From positions 1 to 42,210 of the forward strand of contig JAGQRJ010000659.1 of NCBI GenBank assembly GCA_020425635.1: 42,210 bases of DNA. Direction: 5' to 3'. The DNA comes from Planctomycetota bacterium (lineage in GTDB: Bacteria; Planctomycetota; J058). The position numbers and the translations under genes are program-made. Position 1 is the stretch's first letter. Each line of letters begins with the position of its first letter. This document shows positions 14,677 to 34,222 of the stretch, piece after piece. The notes beneath the pieces were generated by a model. It had not been told where the DNA came from, ran no database searches, and saw only the letters and a program-made list of their open reading frames with translations.

Positions 14677-14996
14677 TCGTCGGCGCGGACCCAGGCGCCC
14701 GGGGTCCACTGCCACTTGCGTTCGCCCTCGACCTCGACCGGCTTCCAGTTTCCGGGGCGCCACTTCTCGCCCTCGCGGGCCGCGATCCAGGCGCCGGGGG
14801 TCCAGTAGAAGACCTCGGTGTCGGGCTCCCAGGACCAGTAGCCCGGGCTCCAGAACAGGTCGCCGGGAGGGCGCTCGCTCTGGACCTCGGCCTTGTCGGG
14901 CGGCGGCTTCTTGGAGACGACGACGGGCTCCGCGCTGGAGCAGCCCCAGAGGCTGCAGGCGAGGGAGAGCACGAGGGCACGGAGCAGTCGGTTCAT
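14673..14996 (-). CDS. Lipoprotein with four WxPGxW repeats
   Basis: A 107-residue lipoprotein. The signal ends in LWGC with lipid-accepting Cys19. A charged, Pro-rich linker (20-45) follows, then four Trp-rich motifs: W49SPGYW, W65TPGAW, W79RPGNW and W97TPGAW. Proteins with WxxGxW or YxWxxGxW repeats are common outer-envelope lipoproteins in Proteobacteria and Planctomycetes; their function is not established, and the repeats probably form stacked beta hairpins. The start ATG overlaps the stop of the upstream Ig-like lipoprotein (ATGA), so the two are translated together. It is convergent with the membrane protein gene. Confidence 0.8.
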   Translation of the reverse strand: MNRLLRALVLSLACSLWGCSSAEPVVVSKKPPPDKAEVQSERPPGDLFWSPGYWSWEPDTEVFYWTPGAWIAAREGEKWRPGNWKPVEVEGERKWQWTPGAWVRADD

Positions 14997-16930
14997 TCAC
15001 GCACCTGCAGGAAGCGGTAGGTCGAGGAAGGTTCGCCGTTGGCGCCGCGCACGACGATCGGCCCGGTAAACAGGGTGTCCGGGGCGGGGGCGCCGAGGGT
15101 GATCGCGCGGCCGGTGGCGACCGTAGTGCCCCCGACGAGCACGGTGCTGTCGACCGCCGCGATCGTCACCCCGTCGATCAGGATCTCGGTGCCGCCTACG
15201 TTGGCCCCGTCGATCACGATCGAGGCAGGCGGCTGCGCGCGGTCGAGGACCACGAGCGGGCTGTCGGGGCTGGCTCCAGAAAACACCGCGGCGACCGAGG
15301 CGCGCACGTCGAGGACCAGGGGGCGCTGAGCGCTGACGGCTTGACCTCCGGCGCTCACGCTGAGGGTCACGTTGCCCGCGGGGACCGCGCTCGGGACCTG
15401 GACCTCGATCGTCTCGCTGGTCTCGGCGGTGACCAGCGAGGCCGCGCCCCCGAAGCTGACCTGGCTCCCGCCGGTGAAGTTGCGCCCGAGGACCGAGATC
15501 GAGTCGCCTGCGATCGCGCGCAGCGGGTCGAGCCCGAAGGCGAGGGTGTCGGTCGGGGGCGGGTCGGGGGCCCCGGCGCGGGTGGTGAACGTGAACACGA
15601 GGGTCGTGTCGTCGATCCCGTTGCCCGAGAGGTCGCGCACCGCGCTGTCGACCACGATCGAGTAGTTCGCCGAGGTGTCGAGGCGCTGGTTGGGGAGCAG
15701 CCGGACGGTGAACGGGTTGTCGTAGTTCAGCCGCGCGGGCACGGCTCCGTTGAGGCCGACGATCCGCACGGGCTGCGCGACGTTGGTGTCGATCGCCTCG
15801 CTGAAGGTCACCACGATCTGCGAGGCCTGGTTGACGTTGACGGCGTCGGCGGCGGGGGAGGTCGAGACCACCCGCGGGCGGATCCCGTCGGGGGCGAGGG
15901 CCTGGTCGAGCACGAAGTCGCCGAGGGCGGTCGAGGTGGAGGTCCGCGCCTCGATCCGCGGGGCGAAGTCGACCCCGGGGCGCTCGGGGAAGGCCCGCAC
16001 GAGGTAGGCGCTGTAGTCCGCGGGCACGTCCAGGATCTCGAAGCGCCCGTCCGCGTCGGTGGGGTCCGAGACGCGGTTCCAGCAGGACACGCGGTAGCCC
16101 CGCACGGGCTGGCTGCCGACCACGACGCGTCCGGTCAGGGTCGCGCTGGGCGACGGCGCCGCCGGGGCTATCGCATAGAGCGCGCCGACGTTGACCGGGA
16201 CCGCGAACTCGGCGCCGCTGTTGATCGGGGCGATGTTGCTCTGGGCGAGCTGCCAGGTGCCGGTGGAGGCCTCGACCCGGTAGAGGTTGAAGGGGCCAGC
16301 GGCCGCGGCGTCGAGCCGAGGGACGGTGAGGGTCGCCGCGGGGCTGAACTGGACGCCCTCGGGCTCGACGAGGAAGGCGACGCGGCAGGTGCGCCCTCCT
16401 GGCAGCGCGGTGGGCAGCCTCGAGGGGCTGACCCCCAGCACGCGCACCTCGCTGATCGCGCCGCTGGGCAGGTTCACGTTGGTCCCGGTCGCGAGCTCCA
16501 GGCTCACGCCGGGGAGCTCGGCGCCCGAGACGGTGGTCGTGGTCGTGATCGCGGCGGGGAGGTTCGCGCCGATCCCGCTGCGGAGCTGGGGCAGGTGCAC
16601 GGGGCGAGCGAGGAAGTTGGGCCCGTCACCGAGCGAGACGGGGACGAAGAGGGTCGGCGTGGTCACGCTGTCGCCGACCTTGAGCACGCGGTTCCCCGCG
16701 GGGACTGGCCCCAGCAGGAGCAGCCCGTCGCGCCGGGTGAGTCCGGCGGGCCCGCCGACGATCTGCACCGGCACGTCCTGGGCGGCGCGCTCGGTGTAAT
16801 CGAAGACCATGCCGGCGAGGTTGGGGGTCGGCGGAGCGCCGCCGCCGTGGCTCGAGCTCGAGCAGCCCGCCCACAGCACGCCGCCCACGACGAGCCCGCC
16901 CAAAACGCTGATTCCAAGGCGGACGTCCAT
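14993..16930 (-). CDS. Large lipoprotein with carboxypeptidase-regulatory, SbsA-Ig-like and IPT/TIG domains
   Basis: A 645-residue surface-type lipoprotein from ATG 16930; the signal ends in WAGC with Cys23 and a Ser/Gly-rich tether. Domains read in order: a carboxypeptidase-regulatory-like beta domain near 38-90, a Thr/Val-rich beta region to about 260, a second regulatory-like domain (TGRVVVGSQPVRGYRV to DADGRFEILDVPA) at about 263-335, an SbsA-type Ig domain (RVVSTSPAADAVNVN, VVTFSEAID) at about 350-445, and an IPT/TIG-like domain (SISVLGRNFTGGSQVSFGG) from about 467. No catalytic motif is visible, so an adhesive or structural role is likely. There is no strong ribosome binding site before 16930, and a TTG six codons upstream is possible. 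It is coupled to the WxPGxW lipoprotein. Confidence 0.8.
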   Translation of the reverse strand: MDVRLGISVLGGLVVGGVLWAGCSSSSHGGGAPPTPNLAGMVFDYTERAAQDVPVQIVGGPAGLTRRDGLLLLGPVPAGNRVLKVGDSVTTPTLFVPVSLGDGPNFLARPVHLPQLRSGIGANLPAAITTTTTVSGAELPGVSLELATGTNVNLPSGAISEVRVLGVSPSRLPTALPGGRTCRVAFLVEPEGVQFSPAATLTVPRLDAAAAGPFNLYRVEASTGTWQLAQSNIAPINSGAEFAVPVNVGALYAIAPAAPSPSATLTGRVVVGSQPVRGYRVSCWNRVSDPTDADGRFEILDVPADYSAYLVRAFPERPGVDFAPRIEARTSTSTALGDFVLDQALAPDGIRPRVVSTSPAADAVNVNQASQIVVTFSEAIDTNVAQPVRIVGLNGAVPARLNYDNPFTVRLLPNQRLDTSANYSIVVDSAVRDLSGNGIDDTTLVFTFTTRAGAPDPPPTDTLAFGLDPLRAIAGDSISVLGRNFTGGSQVSFGGAASLVTAETSETIEVQVPSAVPAGNVTLSVSAGGQAVSAQRPLVLDVRASVAAVFSGASPDSPLVVLDRAQPPASIVIDGANVGGTEILIDGVTIAAVDSTVLVGGTTVATGRAITLGAPAPDTLFTGPIVVRGANGEPSSTYRFLQVRE

Positions 16931-17068
16931 AGGAGAGCAGGGTAGCAAGCTCCCTTGGAGGGTGGGCCGCCGACGGTCCGCGCTGGTCTCCGCGCTGCGC
17001 TGGCGCGCTCAGGACCAGGGGCCCCGCTGCCGCCGGGTGGCGGGTTAGGATCCCGGCTCGGAGGCGGC

Positions 17069-20096: not shown

Positions 20097-20924
20097 TTAG
20101 GGGACGTCGACGTAGGAGCCGCCGTTGTCCGAGGCCACCCCTTGGCAGAAGGAGCGGTAGGAGCCCGAGGCGGCGATCCCGAACACGTTGACCGTGGCGC
20201 CCTGGGTGTTGGCGTTGGCGATCATGCGACGGTGACCCGAGGAGCCGCTGGCGCCGCAGTTTGGGGCGCCGTCGGTGAGCAGCACGACGGCCATGTTGTC
20301 CTTGTCGCCGAGGGCCGAGGCGGCCGCGGGACCGGTGCCGGTGGCGCCCGTCGGACGGTGGCCGGCAACCCAGCCAGTGGCGGCCGACTTGTTGGCGTCG
20401 TTCGCCTCCTGCATGGAGCCCTGCCATTGGCGGGTGCCGCAGTCGTAGGCGATGATGTTGAACTTGAAGTTCTCAGAGAGGCCCTGGATCGAGCGGATCA
20501 ACTCGGCCTTGGCGCGATCGATTCGCGGGCCGGAGGCCTGGGTGCCGTCGGGGCGGGTGTAGCTCTGGCTGTCCCAGCCCATGGAGCCGGAGATATCCAG
20601 CACGTAGAAGATCGTGTCGTTCTCCGAGTTGATCTCCTCGCCGAAGAACGTCGGCGGGGCCTCGGTCGGGGGGTCGATCTCGGGCGGGATCGGGGGCTCT
20701 TCCTCGATCGGGGCGCCCTGATACTCAGGCTTGGCGACCGGGAGGTCGAGGTCGGTGGGGTGGGCGCCGCCAGCACCCGGGGCGCCGCTGCCGGGGCCCA
20801 TTTGGCCGCCAGCGCCCGTGCCGCCGCCCGCGGGGGGCATGCCCGTGCCGGTTCCCTGGCCCAAGGCCACGCCGGCGCTGAGCAGCGCTGCAAACCCAGT
20901 GATCATTACGCTTTGGAGCTTCAT
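20097..20924 (-). CDS. Secreted von Willebrand factor A domain protein
   Basis: A 275-residue exported protein from ATG 20924 with AGGGGG upstream. Signal peptide 1-22 (ends VALGQ) is followed by a Gly/Pro/Met-rich segment (23-55) and a Pro/Glu-rich spacer (70-92). The VWA domain starts near 100: FYVLDISGSM carries the MIDAS motif D110-x-S112-x-S114, VVLLTDGAPN is the later metal-site strand, and the domain ends GGSYVDVP. Cys in AYDCG, PNCGA and SFCQG could form disulphides. VWA domains bind proteins through a divalent metal. The gene is monocistronic or leads no clear operon; the partner is unknown. Position and export suggest an envelope or matrix role. Confidence 0.85.
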   Translation of the reverse strand: MKLQSVMITGFAALLSAGVALGQGTGTGMPPAGGGTGAGGQMGPGSGAPGAGGAHPTDLDLPVAKPEYQGAPIEEEPPIPPEIDPPTEAPPTFFGEEINSENDTIFYVLDISGSMGWDSQSYTRPDGTQASGPRIDRAKAELIRSIQGLSENFKFNIIAYDCGTRQWQGSMQEANDANKSAATGWVAGHRPTGATGTGPAAASALGDKDNMAVVLLTDGAPNCGASGSSGHRRMIANANTQGATVNVFGIAASGSYRSFCQGVASDNGGSYVDVP

Positions 20925-21047
20925 ATGTCCCCCTGTGGACAACCGTGAGAAACAACCCTCGTCTGATAAGGAGACGCGGCCCGATGGGTGGGCCTTGCGG
21001 GAGTTTTCCAAAGAACTTCGGAAACCACCCGTAAGGCGAATTCCGGG

Positions 21048-22622
21048 CTAGCGACGCTTGCCACCCAAGAACTTACGGACCTTGTCGACGAACTCCTCGT
21101 TTTCCTCGATGAAGGGCATGCGGGAGCTCTTCTTGAAGGTTACGACGCCTGCGGTGCCGTAGTGCTTCTGGATCGCGTTGCAGTCGTCGGCCGAGGTGCG
21201 CAGCGAGTGCGGTCCGTAGAAGATCAGGGTCGGCGTCTTGGTCCGGTTGAGCTTGAACAGCGAGAACTCGGGGATCAGCACGCCGCCCATGGGGCGGAAG
21301 GCCTTGAAGCCCACGCTGCGGCCCATGCCCTGGGGGGTCTCGACCGTCTTCTCCACGATCGGGCCGAGGATTCGGCCGATCTCGAGGTCGCGGTGGTCGG
21401 CGAACATGAGCGTGTGGCCCTTGCGCTGGAGGGCGCGCGACTCGCGCTCGTCGGCCGCCTCGTGGCGAGCTTTGCCGTTTTGCTCGATCAGCTGGCTCTG
21501 GGCGTAGTGCTCCATTTCGATGTCGCCGCGCTTGTTGCCCTCGGTCTCGGTGCGGTCGCGGCCGTCGCCCCAGGCCTTGTTGCCGCTGACGGGCGAGATC
21601 AGGATCATTTTGCGCACGAGGCGCGGGTGCTTCTCGGCGAACTTCATGGCGATCCAGCAGGTCATGCCGTGGGCCATGAGCGCGAAGGGCTTGTCTTCGA
21701 TCTTGCCCTCCTTGACCAGCTGCTCGTGCAGCCCCTCGAAGGCCTCCACGATCCGGTCGATCGGGTAGTAGGGCAGGCCTGCGACCTCGGGCTTGAGCGG
21801 GGGGTCGGTGAAGTCGTTGGCGCCCGGGAGCGCCATGTAGAGGATCCGGTTGCTGTCCTCGAGCTCGCGCAGGTAGGTCTCGAGGTAGTCCTTCTCGTAG
21901 CCGTACTCGGGCAGCACCAGCAGCGGCAGGCCCTTGCCGCGGGAGCGGAAGTCGAGGTTCGTGCCGCGGACCTTGGTCTTGCTGATCTCACCGCCGCCGA
22001 GCTCGGACTCGTCGACGTCTCCGCTCGGGACCTCCCAGCTGCCCTTGACCGCGTCCCACCAGCCGCGCCACTTCTCGGGGGTGTCGAGGTCCTTCTCGCG
22101 GGTGATTCGCTCGAGGCTCTCGAGGATATGCACCCACACGAGGAACATGTCCTCGTTTTCCCAGGCCGTGATCAGCGCCTCGACGCCTTCCTTGGCGGGG
22201 AGCTGGCCGAGGGCGATCGCGGCCGCCCGCTTCACGCGCCACTTCTTGTTGTCGAGCATTTCGACCAGGAACGGGACGCGCTCCTTGTTGCCCGACTTCC
22301 CGAAGGCGAGGCACACCGCCTCGCCGATGATCTCCTTCTTGCTCATGCGCTCGAGGCGCTTGATCACGTCTTCGTCGTGGACGCCGGCGAGCACGTCGAT
22401 CGCGGCCTCGCGATAGAACCACTCGCCGCGGGCGAGGACGAAGTCGGTGAGGATGTCGAGCTGCTTCTTGTCGCCAGGGTCGAGCCCCTTGATCAGGTCG
22501 ATCCGCTCCCAGGAGTTCGGGCGCTCGTTGTAGTTACGCTGGAACTCCTTGACCGGGTTGTCTCCGGCCCAGGCGGAGGCCGCGAGGCCGGCGAAGAGGG
22601 CGACGAGCAGGGTGCGCTGCAT
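21048..22622 (-). CDS. Exported HEAT-repeat protein fused to a degenerate alpha/beta-hydrolase
   Basis: A 524-residue protein from ATG 22622 (GGAG seven bases upstream); the signal peptide 1-20 ends ASAWAG. Residues 30-190 are HEAT-like helix pairs, including FLVEMLDNKKWRVKRAAAIA. Residues about 225-520 follow the alpha/beta-hydrolase pattern: LPLLVLPEYGY, the elbow FALMAHGMTCW, RKMILISP, TLIFYGPHS and SSRMPFIEENEEFVDKVRKF. The positions of the triad read Gly319 (not Ser) in AHGMT, Ser473 (not Asp) in GPHS and Arg501 (not His) in SSRMPF, so hydrolase activity is probably lost and the domain may bind a ligand or partner. The two neighbouring minus-strand genes also encode exported proteins. 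Function unknown. Confidence 0.78.
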   Translation of the reverse strand: MQRTLLVALFAGLAASAWAGDNPVKEFQRNYNERPNSWERIDLIKGLDPGDKKQLDILTDFVLARGEWFYREAAIDVLAGVHDEDVIKRLERMSKKEIIGEAVCLAFGKSGNKERVPFLVEMLDNKKWRVKRAAAIALGQLPAKEGVEALITAWENEDMFLVWVHILESLERITREKDLDTPEKWRGWWDAVKGSWEVPSGDVDESELGGGEISKTKVRGTNLDFRSRGKGLPLLVLPEYGYEKDYLETYLRELEDSNRILYMALPGANDFTDPPLKPEVAGLPYYPIDRIVEAFEGLHEQLVKEGKIEDKPFALMAHGMTCWIAMKFAEKHPRLVRKMILISPVSGNKAWGDGRDRTETEGNKRGDIEMEHYAQSQLIEQNGKARHEAADERESRALQRKGHTLMFADHRDLEIGRILGPIVEKTVETPQGMGRSVGFKAFRPMGGVLIPEFSLFKLNRTKTPTLIFYGPHSLRTSADDCNAIQKHYGTAGVVTFKKSSRMPFIEENEEFVDKVRKFLGGKRR

Positions 22623-22733
22623 GGGATTCTCCATTTGAGCGGCCAATCGTATCAATTGCGACGCGAGTGGCCAGATGGCTTCTTGACTGGGCGCCGAGCG
22701 CGCGCCTTAACTTATACGCACACCTGACACCCT

Positions 22734-23945
22734 TTATTTGGTCCTCGAGTTCCAGGCGTGAAGGGCGAGCTCGCGTATCTCCTTTGCTGGTAAGTGCGCG
22801 AGGGCCGCGCACGCTCGGGCGTCGGCCTCGGGGCTCGGCGGTCCCTGGCGAAGCTCGGCGAGGAGCTCGAAGAGCAACTGGCGCGCGGCGACCAGCGGGG
22901 GGAGGTCGCTGCGCTGCTGAACGCCCAGGATCGCGAGGCCGACGAGGTCGGCGAGGTGCCCCAGGGGCTCGTCGTGCAGCATGGCGGCCAGGGCTCCGCG
23001 CTGGGCCAGGGCCACGGGGTCTGGCGGGCCCTCGCTCGGTTCGGCGAGCAGGGCATAGAGCTCGGCGGCGGCGCGCAGCTCGGAGTGGGCCGCGTAGTCC
23101 TGCACGAAACCCTGCAGGCGCTCTGCCGCGGGGCGGGGCGCGAGGCGGCTCCAGAGCGCCTCCACCGAGCGGCCGCGGAGGACCGTCTTGGTCAGCCCGA
23201 GCAGTTCGAGGGTCCGCTCCGGCTGCGCGAACTCGAGGAAGTCGGCTTCGGTGGCCTGGATCGCGGCCACGAGGCTCGGGGCCTGCGGGAGGAACTGCCG
23301 TTGGCCGATCTCGACGATCGCGGCGTAGTCCAGGCGGACCGTGGGCCCCGCCGAGCTGTAGCTCGCGGGCCTCGCGGCCCGGCGCTCGGTCAGGTGCGAG
23401 GGATAGTCGTCGACCAGGGTTTCGTCGAACTCCAGCACCGTGTAGGGGAAGGCTTGCCCGAAGAACGCGCGCTCGCGCCGCTTGCGGGCGCGCAAGCGCA
23501 CGACGCTGAAGGAGCGGCCGTCTTCGGTGAACAAGAACGCGTAGCGGTCGCCGCGTTGGGCGGCCTCGTGGGCGATCGGCAGCAGGTTGGCCTCGTCCTG
23601 CGCGCGCGCGGGGTCTGCGCCCGCCCGCACGAGGGCTTCGCGGAGGTCACCGCGCGCGCGCGCGAGGTCCTCCTCGAGCGCGCCGACGTCGGGGTTGGGC
23701 AGCAGCCCCTCCTGGGCAGCGCGCAGGGCGTAGCCCGCGTAGAGGTAGTCGCCGAGCGCGCGGACTTCGCTGCGCCCGAGCACGGGCTCGTAGCGGGGCG
23801 GGGGCGGGGCGGGCTCGGGGGCGCTGCAGGCGGCCACGCAAGCGAGCGCGCAGGCGAGCGCGCAGGTGAGCCCGCGCCGAGGGTAAGTTCGGGACGGATT
23901 CGGGTTCGCGGAGCCCCCGGGAGGGCGCGTAAGCTCATTGTTCAT
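22734..23945 (-). CDS. Lipoprotein of unknown function
   Basis: A 403-residue protein from ATG 23945. A long basic n-region (to Arg24) precedes a Cys/Ala/Leu-rich signal with lipobox VAAC, giving Cys40; the DNA there repeats TGCGCGCTCGC. A Pro-rich tether follows. The mature part is mostly helical, with no motif I recognise; one beta-rich patch (RYAFLFTEDGRSFSVVRLRAR) lies near 135-155. It ends 111 bp before the HEAT/hydrolase gene and is divergent from recA. The ribosome binding site before 23945 is weak (AGGG), so the exact start is uncertain, but any start must lie before the lipobox. Confidence 0.7.
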   Translation of the reverse strand: MNNELTRPPGGSANPNPSRTYPRRGLTCALACALACVAACSAPEPAPPPPRYEPVLGRSEVRALGDYLYAGYALRAAQEGLLPNPDVGALEEDLARARGDLREALVRAGADPARAQDEANLLPIAHEAAQRGDRYAFLFTEDGRSFSVVRLRARKRRERAFFGQAFPYTVLEFDETLVDDYPSHLTERRAARPASYSSAGPTVRLDYAAIVEIGQRQFLPQAPSLVAAIQATEADFLEFAQPERTLELLGLTKTVLRGRSVEALWSRLAPRPAAERLQGFVQDYAAHSELRAAAELYALLAEPSEGPPDPVALAQRGALAAMLHDEPLGHLADLVGLAILGVQQRSDLPPLVAARQLLFELLAELRQGPPSPEADARACAALAHLPAKEIRELALHAWNSRTK

Positions 23946-28333: not shown

Positions 28334-29125
28334 ATGGCCCGTCGCACGCGCGCAGCGTTCACCCTGATCGAGCTCCTCGTCGTCGCCGCGATCGTGGCCG
28401 TGCTCGCGTCGCTCTTGCTCGCGGGGCTGCGCGCCGTGATCGGCAAGAGCGAGCGCGCCGTGGCGAAGTCCATGATCCAGAGGATCGAGACCGCGCTCGC
28501 CAACTACTACAACGACGAGGGCCGCTACCCGCGGCTCGCGCCGCGCCCTGCGGGAGCACTCCTGGGCGACGCCGACGCCTACCGCGACGACTGCGTCGCG
28601 TTGTGGATCGGGCTCATGAACAAGGCGACCCGCGAGGCGGGCGGCGGCGCCGACGCGCCCTACCTCGAGGGCTGGGACCGCACGCTGATCGGGCTCTACG
28701 CAGGAGGCAGCGCGGGGCTCGACGCCGGCATGCCGACCCAGCCCGACGGCACCAACCACACGACGCAGCTCCCCGCCGCGAACGCGCTCGACGTGGGCCT
28801 GCTGCCCTTTCAGCTCGCGCACCTGCCCTCGGCCCCGACGCAGCTCGTGTTGCTCGACCCGTGGGGGAACCCCTTCCACTACCGCGAGTGGGCCTCGGTG
28901 CGCGACAGCGCAAAGGAGGCGGCGCTCGCCGCCCCGGTCGCGCGGAGCCTGGCCGGGATCTCGCTGGCCCTCGACCGCGAGGGTCAGCAGCCGCCGGTGC
29001 TCACGGCCTTCGACGCGCCTCGGCGTCCGACCCTGATCGCGATCTGGTCCAACGGGCCGAACGGGATCAACGAGTATGGCCACCCAGACTCCGACGACGT
29101 GACGAACTGGAGCGTGTCGCGTTGA
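28334..29125 (+). CDS. GspG-type pseudopilin, first paralogue
   Basis: A 263-residue protein from ATG 28334 (GAGG five bases upstream). A short basic leader ends before the prepilin peptidase site and class III signal FTLIELLVVAAIVAVL, which forms the N-terminal helix after cleavage at Ala-Phe and N-methylation. The globular part shows GspG marks: TALANYYNDEGRYP, LLDPWGNPFHYREW and the C-terminal acidic loop NEYGHPDSDDVTNWS, probably binding calcium. GspG proteins build the type II secretion pseudopilus; this one is about 120 residues longer than a classic GspG because of an inserted central region. The next gene is a close paralogue. No assembly ATPase or secretin lies in the window. Confidence 0.9.
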   Translation: MARRTRAAFTLIELLVVAAIVAVLASLLLAGLRAVIGKSERAVAKSMIQRIETALANYYNDEGRYPRLAPRPAGALLGDADAYRDDCVALWIGLMNKATREAGGGADAPYLEGWDRTLIGLYAGGSAGLDAGMPTQPDGTNHTTQLPAANALDVGLLPFQLAHLPSAPTQLVLLDPWGNPFHYREWASVRDSAKEAALAAPVARSLAGISLALDREGQQPPVLTAFDAPRRPTLIAIWSNGPNGINEYGHPDSDDVTNWSVSR

Positions 29126-29292
29126 CCCAGCCCTTCTCTAAGCCCTTTATAAATAGGGCCTAGGGCGCCGTCAGCGGGTTGGGTTCGAGCAGGATGCAAG
29201 AAAGCTCGCGCGCCGTCGTCTAAACGCTTGTGGGTGGACCCGACCACCAGCCTTAACTGGTTCCGAGACAGGGCCTAAGGACCTATCGCGGA

Positions 29293-29322
29293 TTGACAGA
29301 GCCCGTCGACTCCAGCTAGGAT
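29293..29322 (+). promoter_or_regulatory. Sigma-70-type promoter for the second pseudopilin gene
   Basis: TTGACA (29293-29298) and TAGGAT (29317-29322) are separated by 18 bp, the best promoter match in the window. The predicted transcript begins about 29329, leaving a short leader with GGAGG before the TTG start at 29354. Upstream, 29142-29159 can form a small hairpin that may end the preceding gene's transcript. Confidence 0.7.
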
Positions 29323-29353
29323 CGCGCCCTCACCCACTACTACGGAGGCTCCC

Positions 29354-30151
29354 TTGCTCACCAAAGATCGCCGGGCGTTCACGCTGATCGAACTCTTGAT
29401 CGTGATCGCGATCATCGGCATTCTCGCCGCGGTCCTCCTGGCCGGGATCACCGCGGTTCGCAAGAAGGCGATGACCGGCATCACCTCGAGCCTGATCCGA
29501 ACCATCGAGAGCGGCCTCGCCAACTACCTCAGCGACGAGGGCAAGTATCCCCGCCGCGCGCCGCGTCCCCCGGGCGCGGCCATGGGGGGTGCCGACGGCT
29601 ACCGCGACGACTGCGTCGGCCTGTGGTGTGGGCTCATGAACAAGGCCACCCGGCAGGTGGGCGGTGGCGGGAGCAGCCCCTACCTCGAGGGCTGGGACCG
29701 CGAGAACATCGGCTACTACACGGGCGGCATCGGTGGGCTCGCCAACGGCATGCCGACCCAGGCGGACGGCACCAACCAGACCGACCAGATCCCGGGCGCC
29801 GACTTCGACCAGATCAACCTCCAGCCCTTCCAGCTCCTGCACATGCCCCCTGGGGCGGCGCAAATGCTGGTGCTCCTCGATCCCTGGGGGGGGCCCTTCC
29901 ATTACCGCGAGTGGGCGTCGGTGCGTGACAGCACCAAGGACGCGGCGACCGCTGGGCCCACCGACCGCTCCGGCGTGGTCGGCGGCGTGAGCCTCGCCCT
30001 CGATCGTCAGAGCGAAGCGCAGCCGATTCAGGGGCCGATCCCCGACAGCCCGCACAACGCCCAGAGCTTCGACATTTGGAGCAACGGCCCGAACGGGATC
30101 AACGAGTACGGGCACCCGGACTCCGACGACGTCACGAGCTGGTCGAAGTAA
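29354..30151 (+). CDS. GspG-type pseudopilin, second paralogue
   Basis: A 265-residue protein starting at TTG 29354, chosen for the GGAGG six bases upstream and the resulting short leader MLTKDRRA before FTLIELLIVIAIIGILAA. It matches the first paralogue along its whole length: DEGKYPRRAPRP, LMNKATRQVGGG, SPYLEGWDR, GMPTQADGTNQT, LLDPWGGPFHYREWASVRDS and GPNGINEYGHPDSDDVTSWS. It is therefore a tandem duplicate with its own promoter. It may be the major pseudopilin, as it has the strongest signals, but that is inference. Its TAA overlaps the next ATG by one base (TAATG), so it is co-translated with the third member. Confidence 0.9.
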   Translation: MLTKDRRAFTLIELLIVIAIIGILAAVLLAGITAVRKKAMTGITSSLIRTIESGLANYLSDEGKYPRRAPRPPGAAMGGADGYRDDCVGLWCGLMNKATRQVGGGGSSPYLEGWDRENIGYYTGGIGGLANGMPTQADGTNQTDQIPGADFDQINLQPFQLLHMPPGAAQMLVLLDPWGGPFHYREWASVRDSTKDAATAGPTDRSGVVGGVSLALDRQSEAQPIQGPIPDSPHNAQSFDIWSNGPNGINEYGHPDSDDVTSWSK

Positions 30152-31092
30152 TGCGCGCCTCAGGAACCCTTGCCCGGCGCGGCTTCACCCTGATCGAGCT
30201 CCTGGTGGCGATCGGGATCATCATTCTGCTCTCGTCCCTGCTCATGGTCGCGGTGCGTCCGATCTTCCTCAACGCGCAGCAGAAGGCCACCGCCGCCTTC
30301 CTCGGCGAGCTCGAGACCGCGCTCGAGGCCTACCACGCGGTGTTCCGCGACTACCCGCCCGACGGCTACGACCGCGAGCCGGCGCCTCCCGGCCCCAACC
30401 CGGGCTGGGGCTACGCCGCGGGCCCTGCGGGTGGCGTGCTCGTCGGGTCCCCCGGCGCCCCGCTGAGCGTTCAGCGCCCGGTGAAGGGCACCCAGAGCCT
30501 GATCTACTTCCTCGCGCGCCCGATCGTCAACGTGCACTGGAAGGGCTCGACCGACGACCCGCGCAACATGCGCACCGACCCGGCGGGACCCTTCCTCAAG
30601 AAGATCACCGAGTCGCACTTCTCGCGTCCGCAGTGGAGCACGGCCAAGCCCTGGAACGACCCGGGCTGGAACACGGTCATGCTGATCGACGATTTCCAGC
30701 GGCCGATCTGCTACGACAAGGTCAAGGTCAACTCGCCGGTCTACTTCCAGCCGGGTCGCTTCCACCAAAACGGCGGAACGGGCCCCGGCGGCATGGGGAT
30801 CGCGGCCCACGCAGACGTGGGCTACATCCAGAACCAAATGCCGATCGACGAGGACTTCGAGGACCCGACGGGCGTCCTCAACGCCACGACGATCGCCACC
30901 TGGCACGTCGACCCGCGCTTCACCCAGGCCTACCTGGCAGGAGTCCCGGAGCTCTTCGCGCCGACCAACTACGCGTTCCCCGGTTCGTTGGCCACCCATG
31001 AGCCGAAGAACATTGGGACCTACAACCTCTGGAGCACGGGCTCGAGCTGGTTGAACCCGCAGGACGACATCTGCAGCTGGCAAGGGGATTAG
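30151..31092 (+). CDS. Pseudopilin, divergent GspG-like member
   Basis: A 313-residue protein from ATG 30151. Leader MRASGTLARRG precedes FTLIELLVAIGIIILLSSLL. The stretch FLGELETALEAYHAVFRDYPPDGY matches the GspG helix-to-loop transition, and the C-terminus (NLWSTGSSWLNPQDDICSW) keeps the acidic loop plus Trp seen in the two paralogues before it. The centre (about 75-280) is long, Pro/Asn/Gly-rich and not recognised. It overlaps the previous gene by one base and is 7 bp from the next, so it belongs to one operon. It is likely a variant tip or shaft subunit. Confidence 0.85.
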   Translation: MRASGTLARRGFTLIELLVAIGIIILLSSLLMVAVRPIFLNAQQKATAAFLGELETALEAYHAVFRDYPPDGYDREPAPPGPNPGWGYAAGPAGGVLVGSPGAPLSVQRPVKGTQSLIYFLARPIVNVHWKGSTDDPRNMRTDPAGPFLKKITESHFSRPQWSTAKPWNDPGWNTVMLIDDFQRPICYDKVKVNSPVYFQPGRFHQNGGTGPGGMGIAAHADVGYIQNQMPIDEDFEDPTGVLNATTIATWHVDPRFTQAYLAGVPELFAPTNYAFPGSLATHEPKNIGTYNLWSTGSSWLNPQDDICSWQGD

Positions 31093-31099
31093 GAAGCAC

Positions 31100-31855
31100 A
31101 TGCACCGTCGACACACACGCGGCTTCACCCTGATCGAGCTCCTGGTCGTGATCGGGATCATCATCCTCATGACCGCCCTGGCGTTGCCGGCGATCAGCAA
31201 GTTCCTCGACGGGCAGCGGCTGGGGCAGAGCGGGCGGATCGTGCAGAGCGCGTTCAACGAGGCGCGCCGCGCGGCGATCACCCAGCGCACGCGGCAATAC
31301 CTCGTGTTCTATCGGGACACCGACGAGAAGGGGCGCGAGCGCTACGGCGCGCGCCGCTTCCGCGACAAGTTCGGGTTCGAGGGCAAGCCCTTCTTCCTCC
31401 TGCCGAACGTGCGCTTCGACCTCGTCAGCGACGGCGGCACCGGAGCGCCCCCGCCGACGCCGGCACCGGCCGTGGACCGCTTGACGGGCCTGTTCGTCCC
31501 CCTCTACCAGGGCGAGCCGGTCAAGACCGACGCCGCGCTGTTCACCAACCTGCGCCCGAACCTGGGCGGCGGGATCGGCTGGGTCGAGTTCCGCAAGGAC
31601 GGCACGATCAACCTCACCGACCCCCCGCTGCAAGACCAGCCGCCTCCGACGGCGGGCTTCGCGGCGAACATGTTCGACCTCAACACGCCGATCGACAACC
31701 TCAACGACGCGCAGCTCGACGCGCTGCGCCCGCTGGTGGACATGAACCTGCGCGAAGGCGGCGCGAACGACAACGTCTCCAAGCGCTGCTACATGGACAT
31801 CGACCCCAACACGGGCCGGGTCCGGGTGCGCGTGCTGAGGCAGACCGGCCCATGA
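31100..31855 (+). CDS. Pseudopilin, GspH/FimT-like
   Basis: A 251-residue protein from ATG 31100, with AGGAA upstream. Leader MHRRHTRG and signal FTLIELLVVIGIIILMTALA are typical. After the helix, the segment GRIVQSAFNEARRAAITQRTRQYLVFY resembles the GspH/FimT pattern, in which an Arg/Ala-rich helix continues into the first strand. A disordered Pro-rich loop (PPPTPAPAV) lies near 120. In type II systems GspH is a minor pseudopilin joining the tip complex to the shaft. The 3' end (ATGA at 31852) touches a possible upstream start of the next gene. Confidence 0.8.
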   Translation: MHRRHTRGFTLIELLVVIGIIILMTALALPAISKFLDGQRLGQSGRIVQSAFNEARRAAITQRTRQYLVFYRDTDEKGRERYGARRFRDKFGFEGKPFFLLPNVRFDLVSDGGTGAPPPTPAPAVDRLTGLFVPLYQGEPVKTDAALFTNLRPNLGGGIGWVEFRKDGTINLTDPPLQDQPPPTAGFAANMFDLNTPIDNLNDAQLDALRPLVDMNLREGGANDNVSKRCYMDIDPNTGRVRVRVLRQTGP

Positions 31856-31920
31856 GCGCTCTGGCACCGCGCCGGCTCGCCGGCTACACCCCAATTGGAC
31901 ACAAGACGAGAAGGTGGAAC

Positions 31921-32892
31921 ATGGCACGTCTCAGGCGCCGTGGCTTTACGCTGATGGAGATCCTGATCGCGATCGTGGTCCTGGTCTTGGGGATCACGGG
32001 GATCGTGGCGCTGTTCCCGACCGCGATCGACTCCGGCAACCAGACCGTCGAGGACACCTACGCCTCCGAGATCACGCTCTCGGTGGTCGACGCGGTGACC
32101 GTGGGCATTCGCGAGAGCCGCTACGTCTACAAGGCCAGCGCGGCGTCGCGGGCGTGGAACTACTTCGTGTTCAACCACGACGGCGTGCAGGACGAGGTCC
32201 CGCCTGCCCCGCACGACTACACCTCCTCGCCTCCCGACGGCTCCTTCCACACCCGCGACTACGCCATCGTGCTGCCCCAGGCGTTGAACCTCGGCGCGAC
32301 CGGACAGGGCGGCGGGCTTGGGCCGGTCAACAACACCAACGTGGCCCAGGAGCCGGTGTTCATTTACCCCGTCCCGCTGGTCGGCCACGGCGGCGCCACC
32401 GAGAACAACCAGCGCGCGCCCGCCAGGCTCGACGCCGGCCAGGCGATCGACAACTTCAACGTCAACCGTCGCCGCTTCAGCACCAAGGACACCGAGACCC
32501 ACTGGATCCCCCGGGTCTACCCCCTCGGCGTCTACCGGCGGGGGCAGCAGCCGACTGGCGCGGGCGCCCCGGCCGCGGGTGACACCCGCCTGGAGTTCCT
32601 CTCCAACGACAACGTCTACGACGGCACCGGCGGCGGCCAGCGCACGATCGCGGTCGACCCCTACCCGCACTACTCCTTCGCGTTCTCTTTCCAGCGCGCA
32701 CGGATCGACACCAACAACGACGCGCGGATCGACACCAACGACGAGTTCTCCGAGAGCCTCTACCAGCTCAAGGTGTTCGTGTTCAAGAACTTCGACCAGG
32801 CTGAGGCCGACGCGATCGGCCCCGACCCCACCCGTCCCGTGCCTCGGGGCAACGTCCCGCGGCACGAGTTCGTGACCTTGATCAGTCTGTAG
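31921..32892 (+). CDS. Pseudopilin, GspI/PilV-like
   Basis: A 323-residue protein if started at ATG 31921, which has AAGGTGG upstream and gives the usual short leader MARLRRRG before FTLMEILIAIVVLVLGITGI. The FTLMEILIA form and small residues after the helix are typical of GspI/PilV minor pseudopilins. An ATG at 31852, overlapping the previous stop, would add 23 residues and is possible. The globular part is Asn/Thr/Asp-rich, with a DTNNDARIDTND repeat near 267 that looks like an EF-hand-type calcium loop pair. The expected role is in the pseudopilus tip complex. Confidence 0.82.
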   Translation: MARLRRRGFTLMEILIAIVVLVLGITGIVALFPTAIDSGNQTVEDTYASEITLSVVDAVTVGIRESRYVYKASAASRAWNYFVFNHDGVQDEVPPAPHDYTSSPPDGSFHTRDYAIVLPQALNLGATGQGGGLGPVNNTNVAQEPVFIYPVPLVGHGGATENNQRAPARLDAGQAIDNFNVNRRRFSTKDTETHWIPRVYPLGVYRRGQQPTGAGAPAAGDTRLEFLSNDNVYDGTGGGQRTIAVDPYPHYSFAFSFQRARIDTNNDARIDTNDEFSESLYQLKVFVFKNFDQAEADAIGPDPTRPVPRGNVPRHEFVTLISL

Positions 32893-32995
32893 GAGACGGC
32901 TTCGGACAACCCAACTGCGCTCACGAGCTCGGGGCTAGAGGCGCGCGCAGGCGCGCAGCCAAGGGAGCGGGAGACACGCCGAGAGGAGGCGTCGC

Positions 32996-34222
32996 ATGAC
33001 GAGCTTGCGCAAGTCGTTCACCCTGATCGAGCTGATGGTGGCCGTCGCGCTGATGGTGATCCTCACCGGGAGCGTGGTGTTCATTTTCGCGCGGAGCCAG
33101 GAGATCTTCCTCCAGGTCGACGCGCGGGTGCAGGTCTATCAATACGCTCGCTACGCCTTCGACCAAATGGAGCGCGACCTGGCGAACGTGGTGAAGACCC
33201 ACAACATGGAGTTCTTCGACGACCTCCCCGATCCGGCGCTGATCAAGGGTCGCTACGACAACTCGAACGAAGAGATCCCGATCCGCGGGAAGGACAACCC
33301 CGACACCTACCACTACGCCTTCACCGCGCGGCAGCATCAGCCCTACCCGAGCTCCGACGATCCCCAGACCTTCTACCGCTGGGACTCGCTCTACTTCAAG
33401 ACGGTGACCGTGGTCAGCGGGCAGACCCACCCCGTGCTCGTGGAGTACGCCCTCGTCGACCGCGACCAGCGCCGCCCGCGGCTGGTCAAGCGCCTGTGGC
33501 AGGTGACCGGGACCGACGCGACCAACCCCTTCCGCCCCCGGCACAAGATCAACGACACCAAGCACCCCAACCCGGTCGAGCAAGACCTCGCGCTCTACGC
33601 CGTCGACAGCCGCTTCGAGCTCTTCGTGCGCAACCGGCGCTGGCAAGACGTGGGGGACTTCTACGACGTCGAAGAGCTGATCACCCCGCCTCGCGTGCCG
33701 ATCCAGGGCGGCGGCACCCGGCAGCCCTTCCCCCCGCACCAAGACCTGTTCCCGAACACCCCGGACACCACCTACGCCGGGTCGAAAATGGTCATGGCCT
33801 ACTACGACCAAAACCACGACAAGCGGCCGGGCGTGACCGACGACCTCGGGGTCTTCGAATACACCACGGATCCCAAGACCAAGGGCCTGTTCAAGACCAA
33901 GCGCAACTTCACCTTCCCCATGCTCACCGAGGGCAGCGTCGTCTCGATCTCGGGCGGCGGGTTGGTGGCCAAGGACTACGTGGTCGAGGCCTTCGTCAAG
34001 CCGGACGGGACCCCCTTCGAGCCGGGCGACCCGCCGAGCCAGTTCCGGATCCGCTTCGACGAGTCGCCGGAGTGGCCCCAAGGCAACACCAGCGACCTCG
34101 AGGTGCGCTACATGTGCTCCTGGCTCCCCCCCGCTGTGCGCGTGAGCCTCAAGATCAAGGATTCCAAGAGCCAGGAGATCCGCTCGGTGCAGCGCGTCTT
34201 CAAGCTCTTGAGCGCGAACTGA
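32996..34222 (+). CDS. Pseudopilin, GspJ/PilW-like
   Basis: A 408-residue protein; ATG 32996 follows GAGAGGAGG. Leader MTSLRKS precedes FTLIELMVAVALMVILTGSVVFIF, and RYAFDQMERDLANVV after the helix is the mark of GspJ/PilW, which carry a similar Q-M-x-R-D-L segment. It is about twice the length of a classic GspJ (about 200), with a large Pro/Asp-rich body. It is last of the six pseudopilin genes; a hairpin region follows at once. With GspH- and GspI-like neighbours it would complete the I-J core of a tip complex. No GspK-like gene is seen. Confidence 0.83.
   Translation: MTSLRKSFTLIELMVAVALMVILTGSVVFIFARSQEIFLQVDARVQVYQYARYAFDQMERDLANVVKTHNMEFFDDLPDPALIKGRYDNSNEEIPIRGKDNPDTYHYAFTARQHQPYPSSDDPQTFYRWDSLYFKTVTVVSGQTHPVLVEYALVDRDQRRPRLVKRLWQVTGTDATNPFRPRHKINDTKHPNPVEQDLALYAVDSRFELFVRNRRWQDVGDFYDVEELITPPRVPIQGGGTRQPFPPHQDLFPNTPDTTYAGSKMVMAYYDQNHDKRPGVTDDLGVFEYTTDPKTKGLFKTKRNFTFPMLTEGSVVSISGGGLVAKDYVVEAFVKPDGTPFEPGDPPSQFRIRFDESPEWPQGNTSDLEVRYMCSWLPPAVRVSLKIKDSKSQEIRSVQRVFKLLSAN

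Follow-up and report, generated by a model that had tools for sequence, protein, structure and literature searches.

What function remains in a protein that keeps an alpha/beta-hydrolase fold with every position of its catalytic triad replaced? The question is raised by a gene in a 42,210-nucleotide stretch of Planctomycetota DNA (hereafter the window), contig C361 of a draft metagenome assembly comprising 7.46 Mb in 966 contigs. The gene occupies 21048–22622 on the reverse strand as an intact frame of 524 codons' worth of protein (ATG at 22622, stop at 21048), with a Shine–Dalgarno-like GGAG a few bases 5′ of the ATG, and from the reading frame, family matches, Pfam and an AlphaFold2 model we read its product as a HEAT-repeat protein fused to a hydrolase-fold pseudoenzyme. 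Residues 1–19 (MQRTLLVALFAGLAASAWA; 22566–22622) form a typical signal-like N-terminus, and because comparable hydrophobic N-termini recur across the family, the protein is presumably exported. A HEAT-repeat module follows (residues 23–203; 22014–22556), recognised by Pfam HEAT_2 (E = 1.6e-13; 51.2 bits against a cut-off of 27.7) and modelled as helices over residues 23–192, and then the alpha/beta-hydrolase-fold domain (residues 210–519; 21066–21995). A 579-residue antisense frame (20988–22727, forward strand) spans the whole gene and is probably a shadow of high G+C content.

Taken singly, the window sequence matches Pfam Hydrolase_4 weakly, at E = 0.0011 and below the Pfam cut-off; a domain profile of 40 sequences of the hydrolase-fold family matches esterases in the PDB at E of about 1e-12. 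The full AlphaFold2 model, built from a nine-sequence alignment (mean pLDDT 85.6; 76.2 for a second model), shows a helical solenoid leading into an alpha/beta domain, for which it predicts the central sheet, the elbow after strand 5 and the closing strand and helix of the hydrolase fold. Foldseek searches with the models returned esterases and depolymerases among their matches (E from 1e-10 to 1e-12), and the domain alone gave TM-scores of about 0.5–0.63 to proline iminopeptidases, epoxide hydrolases and esterases. The fusion of HEAT repeats to a hydrolase fold, proposed in a first-pass annotation from the sequence alone, is thereby borne out.

That annotation had also read all three triad positions as replaced, and alignment of the profile with solved structures (4uhh/4uhc, 3oos, 6i8w and 7dq9) gives the same register. 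Gly319 (21666–21668), within the elbow AHGMTCW (21654–21674), falls on the nucleophilic serine of GxSxG; Ser473 (21204–21206), in PHSLRT (21195–21212), on the acidic aspartate; and Arg501 (21120–21122), in SSRMPF (21111–21128), on the histidine. The predicted structure, which the annotation had suggested comparing with active hydrolases, sets Gly319 at the elbow between a strand (313–318) and a helix (319–331). We considered a shifted register in which GMTCW would be a displaced GxSxG, and rejected it because the spacing from the elbow to a helix alanine (A325) and proline (P333) is constant and the profile alignments place Gly319, not Thr321, at the nucleophile.

The replacements extend well beyond the window. 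Across 58 distinct relatives, drawn from many families of Planctomycetota, the nucleophile position holds glycine in 53, alanine in two, and glutamine, glutamate and tyrosine in one each; serine occurs in none. Histidine is likewise absent from the histidine position in all 53 relatives that could be compared there (17 Arg, 8 Gly, 7 Asp, and others), and the acid position, in 55, is serine in 32, aspartate in 12 and other residues in the rest. Across these aligned sequences, the nucleophile and histidine are lost everywhere in the family and the acid in most members. The expectation that Gly, Ser and Arg would all be conserved in a dedicated binder holds only in part: Gly319 is nearly invariant (12th of 267 domain columns by conservation), Ser473 is moderately conserved, and Arg501 is not conserved (182nd). 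No relative that we found has an intact triad, in keeping with the proposal of a conserved pseudoenzyme. The only triad-bearing protein reached by the profile (E ≤ 1e-6 in seven whole genomes), G007:C198, scored 46 bits, against 148 and 203 bits for the two most divergent family members rescored with the same profile. From these substitutions we infer that the domain lacks catalytic activity.

We then asked how the family is distributed and whether its hydrolase-like domain is under constraint. Of six other genomes in the window's taxonomic family, five encode orthologues, at 52–62% identity, and more distant members are spread across many Planctomycetota families. Presence is patchy: 73 of 392 sampled genomes of the phylum gave a match, about a third of these through the HEAT part only, and most of the sampled genomes lack the family. 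A collection scan with a tight eight-sequence alignment, which covered near members, returned only eight loci: six carry the title Planctomycetota, and the other two belong to a single bin titled 'uncultured bacterium'. In a phylogenetic tree, one branch (support 99/88) separates the family from six sampled canonical hydrolases, a small outgroup with long branches, and a single ancestral loss of nucleophile and histidine is the parsimonious reading of these sequences. Between the two closest orthologues, the one unsaturated pair (more distant pairs were saturated and excluded), dN/dS is 0.098 for the hydrolase-like domain versus 0.216 for the HEAT module; that the domain is the better conserved of the two even though it has no triad argues for a retained, non-catalytic function.

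Two genomes (G004 and G006) carry two HEAT–hydrolase copies each (L013, L014, L039 and L040); in the tree each copy groups with its counterpart from the other genome, which points to an old duplication inside the family. The window's genome also encodes a divergent paralogue (L043; G000:C208:4335-5825), inside a 1199-residue frame that shows, upstream, a weak match to Glucodextran_B; the elbow of the paralogue reads GAGHGG, the acidic aspartate is retained and arginine stands at the histidine position. At L048:5160-5170 (G010:C3), a run of G in the linker marks the switch from the frame of the HEAT part to that of the hydrolase part; the gene may be frameshifted, misassembled or truly split.

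The neighbourhood of the gene suggests a setting for such a function. Downstream on the same strand, and likely in the same transcription unit, lies a gene (20097–20924; ATG at 20924) for a VWA-domain protein with a signal-like N-terminus and a MIDAS-type DxSxS motif (DISGS). Upstream is a putative lipoprotein (22734–23945; ATG at 23945) with a lipobox-like CVAAC and no Pfam match. Adjacency to this lipoprotein is retained in two relatives, and in three a single gene separates the copy from a VWA homologue: one has the order lipoprotein, HEAT–hydrolase, second lipoprotein, VWA, and two more have HEAT–hydrolase, second lipoprotein, VWA. We found no counterpart of the second lipoprotein in the genome that holds the window, and synteny is partial, in that lipoprotein and VWA genes do not both flank every copy. 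The HEAT module itself leads to a further connection with VWA domains. Of ten HEAT-matched proteins that were scanned, seven are HEAT–VWA fusions, and the module aligns end-to-end with those of two such proteins (L027 and L028). One fusion of this kind is encoded in the window's own genome. The exported HEAT–VWA proteins of Planctomycetota thus share the N-terminal HEAT module of the window protein but carry VWA in place of the hydrolase fold, and since the HEAT module is common to both, the two domains are alternative C-terminal modules on one presumably exported carrier.

Taking these observations together, we think it probable that the window protein is an exported, non-catalytic binding protein in which the hydrolase-fold domain is kept as a recognition module. 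On the simplest account, the ancestor of this Planctomycetota-wide family had already lost the nucleophile and histidine of the domain, which would since have been maintained for recognition of a ligand or partner; the HEAT solenoid would serve as scaffold or adaptor, bearing a VWA binding domain instead in the sister proteins; and the protein would probably act in the cell envelope alongside the VWA protein and the lipoprotein encoded next to it, a partnership that the gene order suggests. A binding role scaffolded by HEAT repeats, as first proposed, is a reasonable inference from the VWA exchange and the neighbourhood. Counting against this explanation are the Ser/Thr and Cys residues that follow Gly319, whose hydroxyl or thiol groups stay close to the elbow, as well as the 12 relatives with aspartate at the acid position, the partial synteny and the patchy presence in the phylum. 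More speculatively, and with rather less than even confidence, HEAT–pseudohydrolase and HEAT–VWA proteins might together form a modular envelope recognition system, in which interchangeable binding domains sit on one exported HEAT adaptor and include a hydrolase fold whose catalysis was lost in the family ancestor.

A variant of this explanation concerns what the domain recognises. Hydrolase folds are known to have evolved into proteins that bind but do not turn over a ligand, and the most conserved columns of the domain include motifs on the pocket side (VLPxYG, the elbow and MPFxEE), raising the possibility, which we hold tentatively, that the former substrate pocket now takes up a small molecule, which the domain senses or carries, instead of the domain acting as a protein-binding scaffold; the HEAT fusion and the exchange with VWA, however, favour protein partners at least equally. 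A cryptic enzyme, its catalysis taken over by Ser/Thr321, Cys322 or another site in the cap, seems to us distinctly improbable. The elbow signature of the family comprises Gly319, Ser/Thr at +2 and Trp at +4, with Ser or Thr at +2 in 39 of the 58 distinct relatives; Cys322 (+3) is common in the near family, and charged cap residues (D367, R400, D409 and E414) are conserved. Yet the +2 position is also occupied by N, A, V, D or G, most distant members have G, A or S instead of Cys322, and residue 321 is modelled in the first helix turn past the elbow and not at the elbow itself. Nor did a check for a relocated triad, which would have told against the pseudoenzyme reading, turn up a suitable histidine conserved across the family other than H318 (29 of 40), directly before the elbow. 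A decaying pseudogene or assembly artefact, conceivable in a draft metagenome of so many contigs, is extremely improbable given the intact frame, the dozens of relatives in independent assemblies and the purifying selection between close relatives.

Among hydrolase folds without an enzymatic role, the best-known examples come from animals and include the neuroligins and NDRGs. NDRG proteins (PF03096; NDRG1, 6zmm; NDRG3, 6l4g) have an alpha/beta-hydrolase fold with a fully substituted canonical triad and are regarded as non-enzymatic (PMC7022630). The family profile matches NDRG1 at E = 2e-8, NDRG3 appears in both Foldseek searches, and eight of the 40 domain sequences hit Pfam Ndr with E ≤ 0.001. 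Two distant relatives pass the Ndr gathering score of 23.3 bits; the window protein itself reaches 10.4 bits, and on that score we rejected its membership in the Ndr family. NDRGs are also weaker matches to the window family than are esterases and proline iminopeptidases, and NDRG3 as described has hydrolase-fold and cap-like domains only, without the exported HEAT module (PMC7022630). Neuroligins, cell-surface proteins that mediate adhesion through protein binding, share with the window protein a hydrolase fold without the catalytic serine, a likeness drawn at the level of the fold only; theirs is an animal cholinesterase-type domain, membrane-anchored (PMC12931606), and they have no HEAT repeats. 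The nearest matches in both sequence and fold lie in the proline iminopeptidase/esterase branch (TIGR01250; 1xqw, 7a6g, 4uhc), whose members have working Ser-His-Asp triads, unlike the window protein, which scores 26.6 bits against the TIGR01250 cut-off of 167.65. By analogy, the window family most likely resembles the non-enzymatic folds of the NDRG and neuroligin type, set in a bacterial, HEAT-fused architecture.

In the titles and abstracts of the open-access literature, we found no description of bacterial HEAT–hydrolase or HEAT–VWA proteins. The family may offer a bacterial parallel to the animal non-enzymatic folds, as an apparently exported family found across a phylum with nucleophile and histidine lost throughout, and it cautions against annotating HEAT–hydrolase-fold proteins as hydrolases. 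A HEAT module shared between hydrolase-fold and VWA proteins may also provide a way into the cell envelope of Planctomycetota, the biology of which is poorly understood.

Elsewhere in the window, a protein with Big_5 and TIG domains and a lipobox-like N-terminus is encoded at 14993–16948 on the reverse strand, and a row of several type IV prepilin-like genes runs along the forward strand at 28334–34222, with an N_methyl motif in the genes at 31852 and 32996 and a duplicate-looking pair at 28334 and 29354.
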